Shown here one piece after another: positions 6,577 to 26,786 of a stretch of DNA of 27,311 nucleotides (position 1 is the stretch's first letter; every line of letters begins with the position of its first letter). The stretch spans positions 1 through 27,311 of the IMG/VR virus record IMGVR_UViG_3300009106_000024; one strand, written 5' to 3'. The translations under genes were made by a program, and so were the position numbers. A model generated the notes under the pieces. That model saw only the letters and a list, made by a program, of their open reading frames with translations, did not search any database and had not been told where the DNA came from. This stretch comes from a virus.

Positions 6577-6999
6577 TTATCTATCTCCATGAAAGTGATG
6601 GTGGCCATCTGTATGATGGGTATGTGAGTAGTGCCCATGCCAATGTGGCTGATAACACCTCCAGTTGTGCTGATGAACAGTTCCTCGATGATCGTAATAC
6701 TGTGGAACATATGGACCAACGAACTGACCATTTACACATTTACTGTGAGGAAGTCTTGCACAGTTATAACCATAAATGTTACAACCATGAGACAAGTAAT
6801 ATTCTCCACAGTGTACAGGTGTGTGGCCATGGCCATGCCCGTGTCCATGCCCGTGTCCAGGCGGGGGGTAGTGACCATGTGGAACATCAAACAACCAATC
6901 CAAGGTGATACTCCAATGTACATCATCTGCATTGGTCGGCACACTCATGCCAAGGGTCAATGCTACTAAAGTAGCTCTCAAAAAATTATTCAATCTCAC
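6577..6999 (-). CDS. Exported His-rich protein, probable metal binder
   Basis: About 140 residues from a GTG start at 6999 (TTG at 6993 is an alternative). Both overlap the end of the upstream gene and place a signal peptide at the very N-terminus (FLRATLVALTLGMSVPTNA, then DDVH). The mature part is extremely rich in His: a run of six Gly-His pairs around residues 47-58, scattered HxH, HHH and HTHHTDGHHHFHG near the C-terminus, plus four Cys. This composition suggests binding of Zn, Ni or Cu outside the cytoplasm. No named family is recognised. It is the last gene of the 7998-6577 cluster and is followed by hairpins and a terminator. Confidence 0.7.
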   Translation of the reverse strand: MRLNNFLRATLVALTLGMSVPTNADDVHWSITLDWLFDVPHGHYPPPGHGHGHGHGHGHTPVHCGEYYLSHGCNIYGYNCARLPHSKCVNGQFVGPYVPQYYDHRGTVHQHNWRCYQPHWHGHYSHTHHTDGHHHFHGDR

Positions 7000-7276
7000 T
7001 TTTCTTCTTTCTCCAATCTGTCCATGCATCTCCATTATGTATTTCCCCAACAACAACATCTTCCTTCGGGACCCAAACTTCACAACGGAGTTCCAAATCT
7101 TTCACTTGATACTTTGTATCTTCTCGGTTTCTCGCTATGACCAGTCCACGTCTTGTAATACGTTTGTGGTCAACGACCGGTAAGTCTGCCAAAGAGTGCA
7201 GACCGCCAGGACGGTCATACTCATCAACAGGCCATTCGGCCTCATAATAACATCTGTAATGCGTTTCTTCACTCAT
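6986..7276 (-). CDS. Unknown 96-residue protein
   Basis: A 96-residue soluble protein with no family I recognise. It is rich in Asp, Glu, Arg and Trp, beta-prone in the middle (RGLVIARNREDTKYQVKDLE) and ends in a WTDWRKKKSEIE tail. The ATG at 7276 overlaps the end of the upstream HExxH gene by 8 bases and has GGAG about 8 bases upstream. Its 3' end overlaps the start of the His-rich gene, indicating a tightly packed operon. Confidence 0.75.
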   Translation of the reverse strand: MSEETHYRCYYEAEWPVDEYDRPGGLHSLADLPVVDHKRITRRGLVIARNREDTKYQVKDLELRCEVWVPKEDVVVGEIHNGDAWTDWRKKKSEIE

Positions 7277-8063: not shown

Positions 8064-9281
8064 TTAGTTGAACGAATAACCGTCATCATCGTCCTGTTCG
8101 TCGTCGTCATCAACATCATCAGCTTCATTCTGCTGGGACATAATGTCATCAACACTCACACCGGCATCAACCTTGGTGTACAGGTCAAGAAACGACTCCT
8201 TCGTTTCCGAATCGAAACGTGACACGCACATTTCAATGGCAGACATCTTGTTATCGAAAATGCCATAGGCACCTACGATGTGAACCAGACGGCGAGTGGA
8301 GATGATCTCATCAACGCCACCGTCCATGAACGTCTTGCGAATAACGTCTGCCCATTTGATAAGGTTATCGACAAAATCATCGTCGGCCTTATCAAGTTTC
8401 GCCAACTCATTGACGAGAATTTTCTTCTCAGTCTTGTTGGTCGGGTACGACTGCTCCAGGGTAATCGGGAACCGCTCGAGGAACGCCTCATTCAGTACGT
8501 TGGTACCGATGAACCGACCATCGTCAGAACCCTGGCCCTTGGTGTTGGCCGTAGCAATGACTGTGAAACCCGGTGTCGGGTGTACCCACTTGCCAATCTT
8601 CTTGATATAGATACTGGATCCCTCAAGGATAGGCTGTAAGCACATCACCTTGTTGGATGCCAAGTCGATTTCGTCAAGCAGAAGGACTGCACCACGTTTC
8701 ATCGCCATCACGACAGGACCATCGTGCCAGACAGTCTCACCATTCACCAGACGGAAGCCACCAATCAGGTCATCTTCATCCGTTTCGATAGTGATGTTGG
8801 TACGGACAAACTCACGTTTGAGTTTCGCACACACCTCTTTCACCATGAGGGTCTTACCGTTGCCGGACATCCCCGTGATAAAGATGGGGTAGAACATCTT
8901 GGACTTCACAACCGATTTCACAGTGTTGAAGTTTCCGAAAGACACATACCCGTCAAAGGTATCCGGGACATAAGAGTCCTGTTCCTCAAGAACCGAGATG
9001 GCCGTGGGTGCCATGGCAACAGCCGAGACACTTTCAGTCGCCTGTACCGGTGCCGGAGTCGGAGTAGTCGCACCACACTTGCCATCGACTGTCGGCAGGT
9101 AGTACTCACCACGAACGCCAGTCTTGAGTTTCTTGAGCCAAGACGGGACTCCGGCAAGACTCAATGATTCCTTGACGGCCATCGCTTCGGGCCGTGTGAT
9201 AGTCGTGCGGTTCTCGCCCAACATCTCACGTGCGGCATTCACAAAGTCCACCTTGCGGTCGTTCATATTGATAATTTTCAT
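8064..9281 (-). CDS. cobS: CobS-like AAA+ ATPase (MoxR type)
   Basis: A 405-residue AAA+ ATPase. Walker A GMSGNGKT is at about residues 137-144, Walker B VLLLDEID at 199-206, a sensor-1 segment VIATANT follows, and an arginine-finger-like LNEAFLERF comes after it. The C-terminus is a long Asp/Glu tail ending in YSFN. Marine T4-like phages often carry this gene, named for the cobaltochelatase ATPase. The CobT-like VWA gene directly upstream (27 bp away) supports a MoxR ATPase plus VWA adaptor pair, but cobalt insertion is only one possible role. AAGGAAA lies upstream of the ATG. The gene is visibly richer in G+C than the tail genes. Confidence 0.88.
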   Translation of the reverse strand: MKIINMNDRKVDFVNAAREMLGENRTTITRPEAMAVKESLSLAGVPSWLKKLKTGVRGEYYLPTVDGKCGATTPTPAPVQATESVSAVAMAPTAISVLEEQDSYVPDTFDGYVSFGNFNTVKSVVKSKMFYPIFITGMSGNGKTLMVKEVCAKLKREFVRTNITIETDEDDLIGGFRLVNGETVWHDGPVVMAMKRGAVLLLDEIDLASNKVMCLQPILEGSSIYIKKIGKWVHPTPGFTVIATANTKGQGSDDGRFIGTNVLNEAFLERFPITLEQSYPTNKTEKKILVNELAKLDKADDDFVDNLIKWADVIRKTFMDGGVDEIISTRRLVHIVGAYGIFDNKMSAIEMCVSRFDSETKESFLDLYTKVDAGVSVDDIMSQQNEADDVDDDDEQDDDDGYSFN

Positions 9282-9308
9282 ACTGTTTCCTTTTTCAGTT
9301 GTTTACGT

Positions 9309-11531
9309 TTAGACTATCAAGTCCATGATTCGGTTAGCAAGATAACGGTTGCCCGTTTTCTGCTTTTGATGTTTCATAAAGAGGGTCTTTAGTTTGCCCT
9401 TGGTGATATCTTCATCGACCTCACCCAGGCCACCCTCACTTGTTATGTTCTTCATTGTGGGAATGACATAATACTCATCATACCCAGCCGTTGTTACTGT
9501 TGCGAATCCCTCCTCGCGGATTTGTTTCCGGGCCTTCTTATGTTTCGCCGGATAAGAACTTCTCCAACCCAGGTACTTCTCAAGAATACTCCGACCAACA
9601 GTTTTACCCTGTACCAAAAAGATGCCGATATTGTTTATACCATAACGGTCCTTCATCAGTTTCAGAAGGAACTGCACTTGCAGTTCAGCCCAATGGCCAT
9701 AGTGTCGTACCATGTTCGCCTTCGCATAACTCGGGCTAGTAATGTTGTACTGCTTTCTGGTAATCGGATCCTGATAATAGATATCAGTTCGTCCCATTGT
9801 CAGATGCTCATACCCAAAACCACTATCGGTATACTCGTCAACTCGTTTTCTCCAGCAACTGTTCGCTTCGCCATCGGTCAATGTGATAAGGTTCACCTTG
9901 TCCAGTTTGTAATCTCGTTTGAACGCAGGCAATATCTCATTCATCACCATCAGGCCTTCGACCAACGGGGTTGAACCCAGATCAAACTTGCCCCATCCTG
10001 TACGATTGTAATAATCCTGGTTCGTGAATCCAAACTGATACAGATTATACAGCGATTCGTTTTGTTTCTGACCAGACTGTCGTGAGGACACAAGGTTCAG
10101 TAAACGAAAGCCTCTGGTATCGTCCATGGCGATATCGTGATGGTTCTGTTTCCACAGAATCGGATACTTTCTACGAATGTAATCCTCATGGGACTCATCA
10201 TCACGTTGCTCCACCTTCTCGTTATACCACTGATTGGTGAACGCATACACTTCAAACGGTATATTGACCTTTGAACAGAACCAAACAAGGTTCAGAACCT
10301 GTTTGATGGTGTCAAACATCTGACCGTGCATCGACCCACTCCAATCGAGGAGCATCAGCAGTCCATGGTTCTTGCCATCATGCACAATCGCACGTTTCAG
10401 AAACAGGTCATCGTTATACTTGTATGAGTGCAACGCATTCACATTCAGCACACCCGTCTTATTGATCGAGGTTCGCTTGTATTCCTCTGCAGCTTTCTTT
10501 CGTTCAAACTCCTTGACCATGTAATTCACGATCTTGATTGAGGCATTACGGTACGACTTGTAATCAGCACGCAACTCGGGTTCGAGCTTCGGCATAAACT
10601 GGCCATCGTATCGGTCCTTCTCATATTCTTCCATGTCGGCAATTTTTTCAGCACTGGCCTTGTACATTTGTTCAAGTTTGTCCGTCATGCCTTTACGAAC
10701 CACGTCATGGTTGATGATGAGAGTATTCAAATTCGGCTTCGGCAGATTGATATACATTCGATTGGCCGCATAGGCATCTCGCAGTTCTTCAATTCTGGCT
10801 TCATACTCGGCCTGGGTGTTGACTTCCTCGTCATCCACCTCGTGTTCTTCTTTGTCGAACCCTTCACCGGCAGATTCCAGATCGTCAGTCGGAACTTCGA
10901 TTTCCTCACCGTCGCCAATGTTATCATCAGACTCCTCAAAGCCCGGAAAGAATTCCTCAGGAAAGGCCTCTGGTTCGTCCTCTTCGGCATAGTGCTTCAT
11001 AATCTCTTTAGAAACACGAACCGCATCGTCAAAGGTTTCGCATTGTTCGACCAATCGAACCAGATACAGTTCGCTGTCAAAGAACGGAACACACAAAGAC
11101 GCACCGCCCTTAAAATGTATGTTCAAACGATCAAGGAGGTTCATCTCGTCCCAGCGTTTTCCCGAAGCCAACTCACCGAAGAAGCCTCTTTCAAAGAGTT
11201 CCCGATAGCCGGTCACGAAACAAGCACGCAGACCAGGATACTTTCGCTGAACTTTTCTTTCGATACGAGGATCTTCCACGATGTTCAGGACATTCTTCGA
11301 CACGCCTTCCTTGACAATGGCCTGTTCCCAGGCATTCTCGGGTGTATACAAAGAGTGACCGACCTCATGTCCGATCAACATATCAATCAAAGAAGATGAG
11401 ACATTCTTCCAAACCGGTAGAGTCAACACACGTTGCTTTACATCAAACGAAGCCGTCTTGGCATTCGGATCATGCTGAACAAAGATGTTCTCCTCGGCCA
11501 ACAGTTTGGCTAATTGATTTTTGGTTTTCAT
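9309..11531 (-). CDS. CobT-like protein: HExxH protease-like domain plus VWA domain
   Basis: About 740 residues from the ATG at 11531, chosen because GAGG lies about 12 bases upstream; the frame extends to 11564 without a ribosome site. An N-terminal LIGHEVGH (HExxH at 55-59), with NIVEDPRIE at about 83-91, looks like a zinc-metallopeptidase helix pair. A long Glu/Asp-rich linker (about 182-250) follows. The C-terminal VWA domain starts near residue 390 with the MIDAS motif DWSGSM (396-401). VWA proteins of this type work with MoxR/CobS ATPases, here the next gene. A chelatase or a protein-remodelling role are both possible. Confidence 0.85.
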   Translation of the reverse strand: MKTKNQLAKLLAEENIFVQHDPNAKTASFDVKQRVLTLPVWKNVSSSLIDMLIGHEVGHSLYTPENAWEQAIVKEGVSKNVLNIVEDPRIERKVQRKYPGLRACFVTGYRELFERGFFGELASGKRWDEMNLLDRLNIHFKGGASLCVPFFDSELYLVRLVEQCETFDDAVRVSKEIMKHYAEEDEPEAFPEEFFPGFEESDDNIGDGEEIEVPTDDLESAGEGFDKEEHEVDDEEVNTQAEYEARIEELRDAYAANRMYINLPKPNLNTLIINHDVVRKGMTDKLEQMYKASAEKIADMEEYEKDRYDGQFMPKLEPELRADYKSYRNASIKIVNYMVKEFERKKAAEEYKRTSINKTGVLNVNALHSYKYNDDLFLKRAIVHDGKNHGLLMLLDWSGSMHGQMFDTIKQVLNLVWFCSKVNIPFEVYAFTNQWYNEKVEQRDDESHEDYIRRKYPILWKQNHHDIAMDDTRGFRLLNLVSSRQSGQKQNESLYNLYQFGFTNQDYYNRTGWGKFDLGSTPLVEGLMVMNEILPAFKRDYKLDKVNLITLTDGEANSCWRKRVDEYTDSGFGYEHLTMGRTDIYYQDPITRKQYNITSPSYAKANMVRHYGHWAELQVQFLLKLMKDRYGINNIGIFLVQGKTVGRSILEKYLGWRSSYPAKHKKARKQIREEGFATVTTAGYDEYYVIPTMKNITSEGGLGEVDEDITKGKLKTLFMKHQKQKTGNRYLANRIMDLIV

Positions 11532-11547
11532 GTAAAAAATTTTCCTC

Positions 11548-11562
11548 GCGATTTTAAATCGC
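11548..11562 (-). promoter_or_regulatory. Palindrome abutting the ribosome site of the CobT-like gene
   Basis: A near-perfect palindrome (GCGAT/ATCGC arms, A/T centre) ends directly at the GAGG ribosome site (11547-11544) and is followed by a T-run before ATG. It could be an operator or an RNA hairpin limiting ribosome access. No promoter is obvious. Confidence 0.4.
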
Positions 11563-11618
11563 ATTTCGCTTTTGTGGTTGCGTTTTCGCTACTGTGGTAG
11601 TGTACGATAAGCATCCTC

Positions 11619-20556: not shown

Positions 20557-20595
20557 TTATATTGCGGGGTAACTCCAGGGGTCAGTCCAGTTCAT
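20557..20595 (-). CDS. Possible 12-residue peptide between the IscA-like and DUF465 genes
   Basis: A 13-codon frame (MNWTDPWSYPAI) starts at the ATG overlapping the IscA-like stop (ATGA) and ends just before the DUF465 ribosome site. The Trp/Pro-rich content is not random-looking, but so short a frame may only carry ribosomes to the next gene. Confidence 0.25.
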   Translation of the reverse strand: MNWTDPWSYPAI

Positions 20596-20915
20596 GCTAC
20601 GAAACTCTCACCGCAACCGCATGATACTCTGTCTGGAATAGTTACTTTGAATTGTGGCATGAAGTCGCCCGTGTAGTCTATCGTGGCTCCGTCCATGTAT
20701 GACAATGTAAACTTATCTATCACAAAGAAACGATTATCACCGATAGACCAAGTGCCGTCACCTTCTTCTGAACTGTATTCTGAATCTACACCCCACTTGG
20801 CAATCAAACCAGAGCACCCGCCCCCTTGCAGTTCATAACGAACTACCGGCGTATTGTTCCTAGAACAGATTTCATCCATCTGCTCTAGGGCTCTGTCTGT
20901 CACGGTGATGTTCAC
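20592..20915 (-). CDS. IscA/HesB-type Fe-S carrier protein
   Basis: A 107-residue A-type carrier with the three conserved Cys: C34 in GGGCSG and C99 and C101 in SCGCGESF, matching the IscA/ErpA/SufA signature. Length is standard. Such proteins bind and deliver Fe-S clusters or iron. Start is GTG at 20915, directly after the TAG of the upstream 40-residue gene. It belongs to the operon that begins with gp48, gp53 and the hub, so it should be expressed late, at the time of virion assembly. Possible roles are maturation of a host or phage Fe-S enzyme, or metal loading of a virion protein. Confidence 0.88.
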   Translation of the reverse strand: MNITVTDRALEQMDEICSRNNTPVVRYELQGGGCSGLIAKWGVDSEYSSEEGDGTWSIGDNRFFVIDKFTLSYMDGATIDYTGDFMPQFKVTIPDRVSCGCGESFVA

Positions 20916-21375: not shown

Positions 21376-21699
21376 CTAGATGAGTCCTTTCCACTCGTTA
21401 GTCACTGGTCTGGTGTGTTGCCCTCTGATTTGATAACTGCCATCCAACCATGCTTGAAGATCATTATAACCTCCAATATGTACTTCATACTCTCCCCTTG
21501 CGGATTGATATAAACATACCTGGGGAACTTTACTAGCGTTGTTTGTTTTTTTCTTGAAGGCTTCCAGATATTCCTTCTTCTCCATTATATTCACAAACCG
21601 CCAATTCTTATTATAATGATCCAACAGTACTTTGGCTTTCTGGCAATACTCGCACTCCTCAGTACCGTAGACTGTATACAATTCACTTACCTCATACAT
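21376..21699 (-). CDS. Glutaredoxin
   Basis: About 107 residues from the ATG at 21699. The active site CEYC (16-19), the cis-Pro segment SKVPQV and the GGYNDL glutathione-site motif are all present, so this is a dithiol glutaredoxin of normal length. It reduces disulfides, for example in ribonucleotide reductase, or handles Fe-S clusters with IscA-type carriers. The start is uncertain: GGAGGAGG at 21721-21714 is far from 21699, a TTG at 21705 has better spacing, and an ATG at 21723 precedes it. It overlaps the end of the Cys-rich micro-gene. Confidence 0.88.
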   Translation of the reverse strand: MYEVSELYTVYGTEECEYCQKAKVLLDHYNKNWRFVNIMEKKEYLEAFKKKTNNASKVPQVCLYQSARGEYEVHIGGYNDLQAWLDGSYQIRGQHTRPVTNEWKGLI

Positions 21700-21848
21700 A
21701 CCCAATTCAATAACCTCCTCCATTTAGTCGGTTGTCTACCATCACACCCACAAGGATTCTTGGGAGTGCAGGTACACGGATCACAAGTACAATTCTCACA
21801 TGAACAATCAGGATTGTTACATACCATAGCTGTCATGTTATCTGTCAT
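21687..21848 (-). CDS. Cys-rich metallothionein-like micro-protein
   Basis: A 53-residue protein with ten Cys, at about positions 10, 15, 17, 20, 22, 25, 27, 33, 35 and 51. The core CNNPDCSCENCTCDPCTC repeats the CxC and CxxC spacing typical of metallothionein clusters, and PCGCDG follows. It likely binds Zn, Cd or Cu(I), or donates metal or sulfur ligands. The ATG overlaps the upstream stop as ATGA, with AGGG a few bases before it. It lies directly before glutaredoxin in the late baseplate operon. No close family recognised; metal binding is inferred from Cys spacing. Confidence 0.75.
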   Translation of the reverse strand: MTDNMTAMVCNNPDCSCENCTCDPCTCTPKNPCGCDGRQPTKWRRLLNWVCMR

Positions 21849-21985
21849 TTTCCCTGTCCTCTATATTTCTTCCAATCTCGTTTCTTATATTTATTCGTTG
21901 GACGACTCAACGGACTATTACCGATAGAGGTTCTTTTCTTTATTCTCATTCCCTGTACGGCAGGATTCTCTTTTGCTTTTCTCAT
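21845..21985 (-). CDS. 46-residue basic micro-protein
   Basis: The ATG at 21985 overlaps the nuclease stop (ATGA), and its TGA overlaps the next ATG (ATGA). The peptide is very basic (MRKAKENPAVQGMRIKKRTS, then NKYKKRDWKKYRGQGK) and would bind nucleic acid or a charged surface. Its ending resembles small basic proteins I associate with marine T4-like phages; I cannot name it. Tight double coupling supports it. Confidence 0.7.
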   Translation of the reverse strand: MRKAKENPAVQGMRIKKRTSIGNSPLSRPTNKYKKRDWKKYRGQGK

Positions 21986-22401
21986 AATGGACCTAACTTC
22001 TCTCTATTCTGTAAATGTTCCTCAGCGATCTCCTCTTTGGATCTCCCATGATAAGGAACTGCATGATGTTTTTCTATCATCATATCATTCAACATCCTCC
22101 AACCATCTGTCTCTGTATCATACACCTCAAAGAATCCCAGTATTCTGCCAAACTTACCTTTACCATCCTTTTGTGTAATCAATGTTTGTGTACTTCCCTT
22201 TGGCAGATGTGATTGTACATACGCCTTAGCGGCTTTACCATATTTCTTTTCTACCAAATCCCGTGTTCGACTCTCAGGTGTATCAATACCAGCAAAACGT
22301 ATACGTTGTTTTCTCAACCACACACCAAACCCTAAGTCTATATCAACGTCTGTTGTATCGCCATCAATAACTTTTATAATTTTGCATTTGTATTCGTACA
22401 T
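21982..22401 (-). CDS. Thermonuclease-family (SNase) nuclease
   Basis: A 139-residue staphylococcal-nuclease-like protein. VIDGDTTDVDIDLGFG at about 11-26, RFAGIDTPESR at about 35-45 with the catalytic Arg and Glu, and KFGRILG at about 84-90 with the second catalytic Arg are all intact. No signal peptide is evident. It degrades DNA or RNA and could recycle host DNA. Its place directly after the tail-hub gene, with a TAATG junction, in a late operon is unusual and might indicate a virion-linked function. Confidence 0.88.
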   Translation of the reverse strand: MYEYKCKIIKVIDGDTTDVDIDLGFGVWLRKQRIRFAGIDTPESRTRDLVEKKYGKAAKAYVQSHLPKGSTQTLITQKDGKGKFGRILGFFEVYDTETDGWRMLNDMMIEKHHAVPYHGRSKEEIAEEHLQNREKLGPL

Positions 22402-23954
22402 TATCTCTCCAGTTGTCCTTTAAAAGATTTCATTGCGCCTGTTCTACTATCCCCACCAGACAAGTTTCCGTTAGGTGGCAATGCTCCAACAGTATCCGGA
22501 CATATTACTAGGTCTTGATGATATTCTGCAACGTCTTTTCTTAAGTTTACTTTGTGCACCAACTTCGTTATATAATATGTATTCATATAAGCCCAACGTG
22601 CATCCTCTCTCCGTGTTTTATCTGCACCATAAGAAGGCAACTCTAACTGAATACCATCACCAACTTGCAGGCCAGACAGACCATATACCGTTATTCTCAT
22701 GGCCGTATATCTATCGTGATAATGTTGCATATTATCCAAGTTCTTTGTAAGCAACTCTGGATTACCTAATGAACCAGTTGTTGTAACACCATCAGCACCA
22801 GCTCTCTCCCACATATTTACACCACTAGTACTATTGTAAAATACTCTACCATCAGGAAACTCATCAAACGCCTTACTGTCATGGAACTCTGGAAAATTGT
22901 CCGGGCGTACTTGGGGTGGGAAAGAATCCCCTGTTGGAACATATGCTGTCCCTGGAGTTATATGCAAATGTGGTGGTTTGGTATACCCAGCCGTCAATGA
23001 TGGTAAATCGTGTGTATATCTAGCAGATCCATGATGAACTACCTTATGATAGGAGTCATGTTCTATCATCTTTGAAGCAAACATACCCCGGCGAATCTCT
23101 GAATAAGTATCTCCTATTCGTAACCATTGTGCGTCAATAGTATTAATCATCATTCTCAGGTAATTGCCTTCTACAGCACCACCTGGTATGGTATAATGCA
23201 TTTGTTTATCTGATGCGGGTTTTCTTCTACCAGTACCATCTTGTGCGTGTAGTGTTTTGAACCGATAACCCTTTGTCGTTTCGTAAAAGTTATATCCAGG
23301 GACACCATGTGTCTTATTACGAGCCTTATCAGCGATAGCCCGGATAGCATCAAAGGGGTGCATATTGGGAATAATGATCTTTATAATATCTTGTGTATCT
23401 TCAATCCACACATCCTTTTTAGTTTTTAGATGTGTTTTCATTATGTCTTTGACAATCTCTGAATAAGTATCCTCGTATGCCTGTGATACTCGTACACGTT
23501 CATTATTCATTAGTTCTGGAGCACAGAAGTGTATACGATACAGTTGACCAGCTGCAGACGATGCCCCACTACCAACATCATAAGGACGCAAGTTTTCTAT
23601 TTTATGAACGTGTAAGGGATGCTGTGTATGATCTACAGAAAACTCCGAACCAAACGTCTTGAATTTTAGTCTGAGAAGTTCCTGTCCAGTGATAGTGTGT
23701 AATCCAGATGGTGATGGTTCTTTCAAGAAAGCACTGACCAGATTGTCCAAATCCATCAGTTCACACCAACCTGTGATACCCGGCTTATCTATATCTTCAA
23801 AAATATATATTTCTTGAATGTATAAACTAATACCATGAGTCACTCCACCATAATCTAGTTCAGCCTCTTCTAAAAGATATCGACCAGGAGTGTTACCCTT
23901 CTCCGGACCGCAATTATCGTAAAGGTCATAAAAGACATTAAATGATATAGCCAT
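22401..23954 (-). CDS. Baseplate hub protein (gp27-like)
   Basis: A 517-residue structural protein. The middle section (YSEIVKDIMKTHLKTKKDVW, then NMHPFDAIRAIADKARN and YNFYETTKGYRFKTLHAQDG) is the hallmark of tail-hub proteins of the gp27/gp44 type, which form the platform holding the spike. A C-terminal SGLQVGDGIQLELPS segment is also hub-like. T4 gp27 is 391 residues, so this one is longer. It lies after gp53 and gp48 with a TAATG junction. The exact T4 equivalence is inferred from order and fold-level motifs. Confidence 0.75.
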   Translation of the reverse strand: MAISFNVFYDLYDNCGPEKGNTPGRYLLEEAELDYGGVTHGISLYIQEIYIFEDIDKPGITGWCELMDLDNLVSAFLKEPSPSGLHTITGQELLRLKFKTFGSEFSVDHTQHPLHVHKIENLRPYDVGSGASSAAGQLYRIHFCAPELMNNERVRVSQAYEDTYSEIVKDIMKTHLKTKKDVWIEDTQDIIKIIIPNMHPFDAIRAIADKARNKTHGVPGYNFYETTKGYRFKTLHAQDGTGRRKPASDKQMHYTIPGGAVEGNYLRMMINTIDAQWLRIGDTYSEIRRGMFASKMIEHDSYHKVVHHGSARYTHDLPSLTAGYTKPPHLHITPGTAYVPTGDSFPPQVRPDNFPEFHDSKAFDEFPDGRVFYNSTSGVNMWERAGADGVTTTGSLGNPELLTKNLDNMQHYHDRYTAMRITVYGLSGLQVGDGIQLELPSYGADKTRREDARWAYMNTYYITKLVHKVNLRKDVAEYHQDLVICPDTVGALPPNGNLSGGDSRTGAMKSFKGQLER

Positions 23955-24466
23955 TACGACACTACTTCACGGGCAAACTCCGATGCGACTTGACGGACAT
24001 ATTGTGGATCTAAAACTCGGATTTGTTTTTTATTGGCATTCAGATTTTCTTCGTATTCGTAATTTGTTATAGCCAATGCTCCAACATGATCGGAAGGAAC
24101 TGTAATCTTCTTATTAGTATCACCTGATGATTGTGCCGCCTCATAATGATGAACACCATTCACATTAGTATACTTTGCCTTTACAAATCGTTCCAAGTCT
24201 CGTAACCCCATTGGCCAATCGTAATAGGGGTCTACCACATCATTGGTCATAAGAATAATCCAATGTAGTTTAGCATCACCATACTGTTCATATGCTACAT
24301 CTTCTGGCCGTTGACCTTCCTTTACATCATACTTGGAGAATATGGAATTGTTATTCTGTACTGCCTTTTTTATTTTTACTCGTATCAGAAAGTCACGAAT
24401 ACTTTTAGTATTTTTGTTTCCAGTTACATCGTAATCTATCTTTGGAAATTTAGTAAAATAACTCAT
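23954..24466 (-). CDS. 53: Baseplate wedge protein gp53
   Basis: A 170-residue gp53-family wedge protein. The segment YDVKEGQRPEDVAYEQYGDA, then KLHWIILMTNDVVDPYYDWP, is the LysM-like core shared by gp53 homologues. The start overlaps the gp48 stop (ATGA), and the stop overlaps the hub start (TAATG). It joins the wedge to the hub in the assembled baseplate. Confidence 0.9.
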   Translation of the reverse strand: MSYFTKFPKIDYDVTGNKNTKSIRDFLIRVKIKKAVQNNNSIFSKYDVKEGQRPEDVAYEQYGDAKLHWIILMTNDVVDPYYDWPMGLRDLERFVKAKYTNVNGVHHYEAAQSSGDTNKKITVPSDHVGALAITNYEYEENLNANKKQIRVLDPQYVRQVASEFAREVVS

Positions 24467-25266
24467 AGGACTACATCACCTCCTGCACCCATACCAAAGT
24501 ACGGATCTCTAAAATCCTGTTGAGTAAGGATTTCCATTTCTTTGAAGGCCAATGATATGTCTACCTGTGTTGGTAAATCATTATCAGAAAACACATTGAA
24601 TTTGTCTCCACCATACTTGATACCCACACTAGTCAATACACTCATCTTGAAATGCATCTCTGCAATATTTCTAGGTTGAATGGTAATATCAAAAACATGA
24701 GGAACATTATATAAACGTAGTACATCACCGCCACCAGTCAGTAGTTCTGGAGATGAATAAAACTTAAAGAAATTACAAATAGTCAAAATAATTTGAGAGT
24801 CTGTCCTGTTTCTTGGTCGTAACGAGAAATTAAAAGAATGATCCCTATATCCAGGACCACTATACGATATATATGCCTGTTCAAGAGCTCGTGAAGATAC
24901 ACCACCAATCCCAAGCATACCTTCTGCCCGAGCCTTTACGATATCCATAGTACCAGATACACTCTCAACCTTTTCAACACCAGCATTACCCTTCTCAGAT
25001 TTTGGTTCTGCCTTCCCACCATCTTTACCCATAAACAAACCCAATATTTGAGATCCGGCGGCTTGCATTTCATTTGCTGTCGATTCATCCCAACCCTGTT
25101 GATAGGTAGTCTCTAGACCTTCTGGTGGTACTGGTAACCAGGCCCAATTACCAGTGGCCTGTGTTTTCACTTGACCAATAGCCGATTCTGATAATATTTT
25201 ACGAGCATGGAACCCTATCATGGGCATACCGTCCTCGTATTTAGATGGATAACTTGTTGATCCCAT
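24463..25266 (-). CDS. 48: Baseplate tail-tube cap protein gp48 (or gp54 type)
   Basis: A 267-residue gp48/gp54-type protein that caps the hub and starts the tail tube. The C-terminal half is characteristic (AYISYSGPGYRDHSFNFSLR, RPRNRTDSQIILTICNFFKF, then PTQVDISLAFKEMEILTQQD). T4 gp48 is 364 residues, so this version is shorter. A late box lies at 25292-25299, and GAGGG precedes the ATG, so unlike its late neighbours it has a normal leader of about 20 bases. It heads the operon reaching DUF465. Confidence 0.85.
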   Translation of the reverse strand: MGSTSYPSKYEDGMPMIGFHARKILSESAIGQVKTQATGNWAWLPVPPEGLETTYQQGWDESTANEMQAAGSQILGLFMGKDGGKAEPKSEKGNAGVEKVESVSGTMDIVKARAEGMLGIGGVSSRALEQAYISYSGPGYRDHSFNFSLRPRNRTDSQIILTICNFFKFYSSPELLTGGGDVLRLYNVPHVFDITIQPRNIAEMHFKMSVLTSVGIKYGGDKFNVFSDNDLPTQVDISLAFKEMEILTQQDFRDPYFGMGAGGDVVL

Positions 25267-25285: not shown

Positions 25286-25293
25286 TATAAGTA
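25286..25293 (+). promoter_or_regulatory. Late-type promoter box for gp4
   Basis: The plus strand reads TATAAGTA, seven of eight matches, ending six bases before the gp4 ATG. It overlaps the minus-strand box of gp48 by two bases. Confidence 0.65.
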
Positions 25294-25299
25294 TTTATA
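25292..25299 (-). promoter_or_regulatory. T4-type late promoter box for gp48 operon
   Basis: The minus strand reads TATAAATA exactly. With T4 spacing transcription starts near 25286, leaving about 20 bases before the gp48 ATG with a GAGGG ribosome site. Confidence 0.8.
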
Positions 25300-25760: not shown

Positions 25761-26786
25761 ATGAGAAAAATTTTACTTGCCTTTTTGTTTGTATTCAGTT
25801 GTTCTGCTGTAGCTCTAACTCCTGAAAATGTAAACAAAGCCCTGGATGCCACCGTAATGGTGACAGGGGAGGATAGTGGTTTTGGATCTGGTGTGGTTAT
25901 AAGTGAGGACGGCCTTATCGTCACTAACTATCATGTAATACATAGAATCGACCCTGTAATATATTTTTACAACCCTAAAGATTTGAATTACTATTCGGCA
26001 GATATTGTAGGTATTGATCCTGTTGCTGACTTGGCCCTATTGAAGGTCAATGTACCGGATGAGTATCTACCTCTAGTATATCTTGATATAGATACGGAAG
26101 TTGAGTTAGCAGAAGAAGTTATTGCTATTGGACATCCTATGGGACTACAGTGGTCAGTGACAAAAGGAATCATCAATCATCTAGAACGGCCTGGAAAGAT
26201 AACACCTTATGTCAATGTTATACAGCACTCCGCTATTATAAACAGAGGAAACTCTGGAGGGCCCCTGGTCAATACTGATGGCGATATCGTAGGTATCAAT
26301 ACTTACATTCTATCTCCTAAAGGACAGTGGACAGGAGTAGCCTATGCTGTTCGTAGTGATACAGTATCCGAATCTATAGAGCAAATGAAAAATACTGGTG
26401 AAGTAATATACTCCGCAACAAAGATGGCAATAAGAAGTCTAAATGAATGGTATCTTACTCAACTAATAGAGGAGTTTCCTGAGGAAAAGTTACCCACAAA
26501 TATATTTGGTCTAATAGTAACAGATGTGGAAGAAGATGATTATGCCTATGAACAAGGCATTAGAAACCTTGACGTTATTATTGCCGTGAATGGTGAACCA
26601 GTAAACTATCTAGACGAACTCAAACAAGTTATGAAAGGTCTATCTCCTGATGATATAGTAACACTTCTCATCATAAGAGATTCCCATATCCGAAGTATGC
26701 CTTATAAAATAGGCACACTAGACTTCGATACCTATATGGAATTCTATGATAGGGGTGAGGATTCTAATACGCGACAGCCACGTTAG
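25761..26786 (+). CDS. Exported HtrA/DegP-type serine protease
   Basis: A 341-residue S1C protease with an N-terminal signal (MRKILLAFLFVFSCSAVALT); C14 could make it a lipoprotein, but the -2 Phe is unusual. The catalytic triad is His58 in TNYHVIH, Asp90 in VADLALLKV and Ser165 in RGNSGGPLV. One C-terminal PDZ domain lies at about 240-330 (FGLIVTDVEEDDYAYEQGIR, then DVIIAVNGEPVNYLDEL). It likely works outside the cytoplasm. There is no ribosome site; a late box gives a leaderless message. Its 3' end overlaps the converging tape-measure gene by 23 bases. Confidence 0.9.
   Translation: MRKILLAFLFVFSCSAVALTPENVNKALDATVMVTGEDSGFGSGVVISEDGLIVTNYHVIHRIDPVIYFYNPKDLNYYSADIVGIDPVADLALLKVNVPDEYLPLVYLDIDTEVELAEEVIAIGHPMGLQWSVTKGIINHLERPGKITPYVNVIQHSAIINRGNSGGPLVNTDGDIVGINTYILSPKGQWTGVAYAVRSDTVSESIEQMKNTGEVIYSATKMAIRSLNEWYLTQLIEEFPEEKLPTNIFGLIVTDVEEDDYAYEQGIRNLDVIIAVNGEPVNYLDELKQVMKGLSPDDIVTLLIIRDSHIRSMPYKIGTLDFDTYMEFYDRGEDSNTRQPR

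Follow-up and report, generated by a model that had tools for sequence, protein, structure and literature searches.

We have identified, in a 27,311-nucleotide stretch of viral DNA (IMG/VR record IMGVR_UViG_3300009106_000024; here called the window), a small cysteine-rich gene belonging to a phage family that has had no name. We read its product as a metallothionein-like (MT-like) protein that serves late in infection as a metal buffer, keeping Fe-S scaffolds usable, and we put the probability of this reading at roughly 60%. It rests on the conservation of the gene, on the operon in which it lies and on its linkage to Fe-S assembly genes, all of which are observed directly.

The MT-like gene and its operon

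The MT-like gene (MTDNMTAMVCNNPDCSCENCTCDPCTCTPKNPCGCDGRQPTKWRRLLNWVCMR) occupies positions 21687 to 21848 on the minus strand, with its ATG at 21848 and its stop codon ending at 21687. The initial annotation had described ten Cys in CxC and CxxC spacing in a 53-residue protein, and translation bears out the count. The tenth, C51, cannot be included among the conserved residues, however; it lies in the tail of the protein, where the gene overlaps the glutaredoxin frame, and outside the family core, and the conserved number is therefore nine. The proposed ATGA coupling to the upstream gene, with a ribosome site, is also seen: a stop-start overlap at 21845 to 21848 joins the gene to a 46-aa ORF (21985 to 21845), and the RBS region (gaggacagggaaa, 21849 to 21862, minus strand) places gaggacaggg directly before the ATG. 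Cys makes up only 0.74% of the residues encoded by the other genes of the window, giving P ~7e-12 for at least 10 Cys in 53 residues, and simulated windows (n = 300) yielded 0.01 comparable Cys-rich micro-ORFs and no copies of the nine-Cys spacing. Such an ORF is thus not a product of chance, and we consider it confirmed as real. An AlphaFold model of the protein was uninformative (pLDDT 57), and PADLOC found no defence match for it.

The gene sits in a contiguous T4-type baseplate operon, in which the minus-strand order is tail-tube cap, gp53-type wedge, tail protein, SNase, 46-aa peptide, MT-like protein and glutaredoxin, with overlaps. The three late genes at its head (22401 to 25266; phrog_230, phrog_232 and phrog_350) begin with that of the tail-tube cap (25266 to 24463). 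They are followed by the SNase-like nuclease gene (21982 to 22401, minus strand; phrog_452, E = 9.5e-34), a recurrent neighbor of MT-like genes in several gene orders, and by the gene for the 46-aa basic micro-peptide (21845 to 21985, minus strand), which has 75 to 80% identity over 30 to 32 aa to sequences in L001 and L051 to L054. A basic micro-peptide of this kind, KKRTSIGxSxxxRPxNKxKRxxxKKYRGQGK, adjoins MT-like genes in differently arranged phages (L001, 4023 to 4157; L052, 6136 to 6225). The glutaredoxin gene (21376 to 21723, minus strand; CEYC dithiol motif; PF00462, E = 2e-10) overlaps the 3′ end of the MT-like gene and likely starts at the ATG after ggaggagg inside it. About 770 nt downstream of the MT-like gene lies an IscA/HesB-like A-type Fe-S carrier gene (20592 to 20915, minus strand; phrog_17776, E = 3e-14; PF01521, 24.3 bits against a cut-off of 26.3), whose translation contains GGGCSG and SCGCG and so has the three cluster-ligand Cys, one central and two in a CxC near the C terminus, that define such a carrier. 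The gene had been placed directly before glutaredoxin and near an IscA-like protein, which is what we see, and the Fe-S link proved wider than had been described, IscU being the commonest neighbor elsewhere.

The operon's first gene is preceded, at a distance of 26 nt, by a T4-type late-promoter-like site, TATAAATA (25292 to 25299, minus strand), and the same motif also stands before the gp25-type and gp5-type baseplate genes. Since the window contains three copies and two are expected by chance, only the placement is suggestive. In Pelagibacter and Methylophilales phages the baseplate genes follow this same order and other small genes occupy the place of the MT-like gene; the MT-like protein is absent from the isolates HTVC008M, Mosig, Melnitz, Sf-FR1 and C48C1. 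The claim of a late operon therefore stands, late timing itself being inferred, and the MT-like gene is best described as occupying a variable cargo segment.

Three other genes of the window were noted in passing. The product of the ORF at 6577 to 7083 (minus strand) opens like a signal peptide and continues into a His-rich region (GHGHGHGHGH, HGHYSHTHHTDGHHHFHGD); it may be a second metal-binding protein. At 25761 to 26786 (plus strand) is an HtrA/DegP-like gene (trypsin-like plus PDZ), a relative of which closely precedes SNase-MT in L002, and 8064 to 11564 (minus strand) encodes a MoxR-type AAA ATPase (AAA_5, E = 2e-20) and then a CobT-like/peptidase protein (phrog_459, phrog_5298).

A family of relatives in viral contigs

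Proteins of this kind had been thought rare in phages. Among marine viral contigs this family is in fact common: we collected at least ~125 distinct relatives, mostly of 20 to 54 aa and nearly all from viral contigs. Cys accounts for roughly 17 to 45% of their residues. They share a fixed core of nine Cys, C-x4-C-x-C-x2-C-x-C-x2-C-x-C-x5-C-x-C. Our first pattern search of viral contigs returned 58 loci with anchors that included CENCTCDP, and the conservation of that stretch is consequently in part an effect of ascertainment. We therefore repeated the search with patterns fixing only half of CENCTCDP and re-checked the stretch at IscU-anchored loci. The collection as a whole holds at least 130 distinct short proteins, a few of which are spurious low-complexity frames. 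A lack of conserved Cys spacing in relatives would have refuted the initial annotation; the spacing is kept, the seven-Cys core being present in 114 and the full nine-Cys spacing in 82 of 129 family ORFs among the matches listed. Of 74 aligned members, 73 keep an Asn at the second position after the first Cys; the median dN/dS over 210 pairs was 0.17, which indicates purifying selection, and a Shine-Dalgarno-like site lies upstream of 108 of 130 family ORFs (again among the matches listed).

The family is not represented by any model in Pfam, PHROG or NCBIfam, and 17 members gave no match at E ≤ 1 to the curated Pfam and NCBIfam metallothionein models. Neither the window protein nor a consensus had a relative among 50,697 phage records searched with tblastn, a result to which the low-complexity filter may contribute. 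Annotation libraries miss MT-like genes because the genes are so short. Text searches of the literature, which did not extend to subscription literature or preprints, found no report of a phage metallothionein.

Searching viral contigs with a Cys-only pattern returned mostly antisense repeat noise, and this approach was rejected. Further phage ORFs that are short and rich in Cys, with the residues differently spaced (for example, MADEDKKNCNCENCDCENCTCSEENPCACMTDKQGED and MIEYKCENCDCENCDCENCNCENCDCK), were encountered at L287, L354, L365, L307, L340 and other loci and probably represent more families of the same kind. A similar CxC module, CECENCECDPCEC or CKCENCGCEDCEC, also occurs inside large phage proteins of ~520 to 710 aa at L301 (4455 to 6578, minus strand), L311, L352 and L361, the last of which also carries an Fe-S gene.

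The similarity of these modules, together with an operon shared with the tail-tube cap and gp53, raises the idea that the MT-like protein is a virion or assembly component, such as a metal-binding tail part. We give this idea very little credence, as other lineages place the gene beside Hsp20 and DNA polymerase, or beside IscA and IscU, rather than tail genes, and isolates with the same baseplate order do without the protein.

Fe-S assembly genes and the proposed role

Across 113 deduplicated family loci, the commonest neighbor was IscU (39 loci; identified as NifU_N, E = 4e-54), followed by SNase (27), Hsp20 (21) and IscA (18). IscU or IscA was present at 42 of 102 family loci but at only 2 of 119 loci that an unrelated pattern scan had supplied as controls, an enrichment of ~40-fold (odds ratio); one of the two positive controls was itself a family locus. 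The control loci were not matched for habitat, host and habitat are uncontrolled, loci from the same lineage cannot be counted as independent, and most contigs are fragments. Approaching the linkage from the other side, we found a family member within 2.5 kb and on the same strand at 32 of 80 IscU loci that had been recovered without use of any MT-like sequence, and all of the same-strand Cys-rich micro-ORFs at IscU-anchored loci were family members. Because the IscU used as query was itself taken from a family locus, this rate holds for close relatives of the query. Two Acinetobacter phage IscU matches were discarded as apparent bacterial chromosome with a full isc operon. Of 94 distinct IscU loci, 35 have the MT-like gene on the upstream side of IscU and 14 have it on the downstream side, and the tree requires several changes; proximity kept in different gene orders argues for a functional tie. 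Within the lineage of the window, the order is SNase-MT-Grx-IscA in the window and L002 and SNase-MT-IscA in L001; IscU is absent from these three fragments. Many members, such as those of phages with the order Hsp20-MT-M15 peptidase-DNA polymerase, have neither IscU nor IscA on the fragment, and the Fe-S link is thus not universal.

Taken as a whole, the MT-like interpretation is supported, both by the Cys spacing of relatives and by a recovery from IscU loci that was blind to MT sequence, with metal binding inferred. A three-metal thiolate cluster, as in metallothionein beta domains, needs nine Cys in CxC spacing and no His. The nine conserved Cys of the MT-like protein would probably enclose a small metal-thiolate cluster, for which three divalent ions (Zn or Cd) are the simplest content and several Cu(I) the alternative, stoichiometry and metal identity alike being inferred. 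Made late from the baseplate operon, the protein may limit free Zn(II) and Cu(I) during the dismantling of the cell and, in many phages, keep Zn and Cu off the Cys of phage-encoded IscU and IscA, with glutaredoxin keeping the thiols reduced. When E. coli is overloaded with Zn, Zn binds IscU and IscA via their conserved Cys and Fe-S assembly is blocked, and Cu binds E. coli IscA (PMC6495748). A late metal buffer beside IscU, IscA and glutaredoxin fits the protection of an Fe-S assembly line, although the guarding role is inferred. The more general proposal, to which we would give somewhat less than even odds, is that a minimal nine-Cys peptide (down to seven Cys and 20 aa) forms a phage accessory module guarding IscU and IscA from mismetallation by Zn or Cu and that this module has been dispersed among many lineages of marine phages with its gene order reshuffled.

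The same linkage could mean that the micro-protein is an Fe-S biogenesis factor delivering iron, sulfide or a nascent cluster to IscU and IscA or collecting it from them, and the nearby glutaredoxin would suit that role. We think this improbable: many members have no isc neighbors, nor do the ArsR-linked relatives described below, and nine Cys in 27 residues at CxC is a pattern of d10-metal thiolates. CxC-spaced Cys of this type are unlike ferredoxin or scaffold motifs.

To look for cellular relatives, we scanned 84,980 species and found 13 loci, of which two (L373 and L382) are probably phage contigs in bins. In three gut bacterial metagenome-assembled genomes (L377 to L379), an ArsR/SmtB-type gene (PF01022, E = 6e-12) lies directly upstream, ending ~50 nt before the MT-like gene, and an inverted repeat precedes the latter. 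This placement counts toward our main reading as well. A divergent HxlR-type gene is present in L372 (by Pfam) and in L380 (by sequence reading only), and L372 also has an ArsC-like phosphatase gene. Among sampled relatives of two of these genomes, the gene was found in 1 of 150 and 1 of 141, and is therefore rare and patchy in cells. None of the chromosomal relatives is tied to isc genes, and several phage lineages have no Fe-S genes nearby, as would be expected of a general metallothionein that serves the infected cell as a whole by detoxifying or storing Zn, Cu or Cd or by scavenging oxidants, its Fe-S neighbors belonging merely to a shared cargo island. The enrichment of Fe-S assembly genes over controls, in several gene orders, counts against this explanation, which we regard as unlikely while taking it more seriously than the biogenesis factor.

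Marine viruses have already been reported to carry Fe-S assembly genes, for a reason that is unclear. A metal-thiolate peptide that travels with these genes would point to metal competition as the problem that phage Fe-S genes solve, and suggests that these phages bring their own metal buffer, protecting Fe-S chemistry in the infected cell. It would also add to abundant viruses an MT-like family, possibly with some of the smallest natural members.

Comparison with known systems

The main text of a marine-virus survey gives 6 IscU and 14 A-type (ATC) carriers among 1,352 genomes (PMC5332604). These are viruses of the same kind with Fe-S assembly genes, and glutaredoxin is named there as an associate; unlike the loci described here, they come with no cysteine-rich micro-protein as far as that main text goes, from which the word "cysteine" is absent.

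The MT-like protein has two of the features of metallothioneins as a broad class, namely, very small size with high Cys content and a conserved CxC/CxxC array; the third, binding of d10 metal ions in thiolate clusters, is inferred. A link to a metal-sensor gene, a supporting rather than strictly defining feature, is found only in the chromosomal relatives and not in phages. Like BmtA/SmtA of cyanobacteria and pseudomonads, the MT-like protein appears to be a small bacterial-type metal-thiolate protein. SmtA is under the control of an ArsR/SmtB-family repressor, and the arrangement in L377 to L379 appears alike. The Cys spacing of SmtA differs from that of the phage core, however, and the MT-like protein, with neither His ligands nor a zinc-finger segment, matches no curated model; membership of the BmtA/SmtA group, which calls for a match to a curated Pfam or NCBIfam metallothionein model, is thus not met. 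Membership of the vertebrate family, which calls for significant similarity as well as Cys order, is not met either: there was no Pfam metallothionein match, and the sole PDB sequence match, 1m0j, was not significant (E = 0.34). The vertebrate beta domain (1M0J, MT_nc) nevertheless has, likewise, nine Cys in CxC/CxxC spacing and no His, and its two halves, DPCECSKSGTCNC and SCTCTNCSCKSC, look like those of the phage core in swapped order. Judged from sequence, homology to known metallothioneins is not shown and the resemblance is one of design, for which convergence with the vertebrate proteins is the simplest reading.
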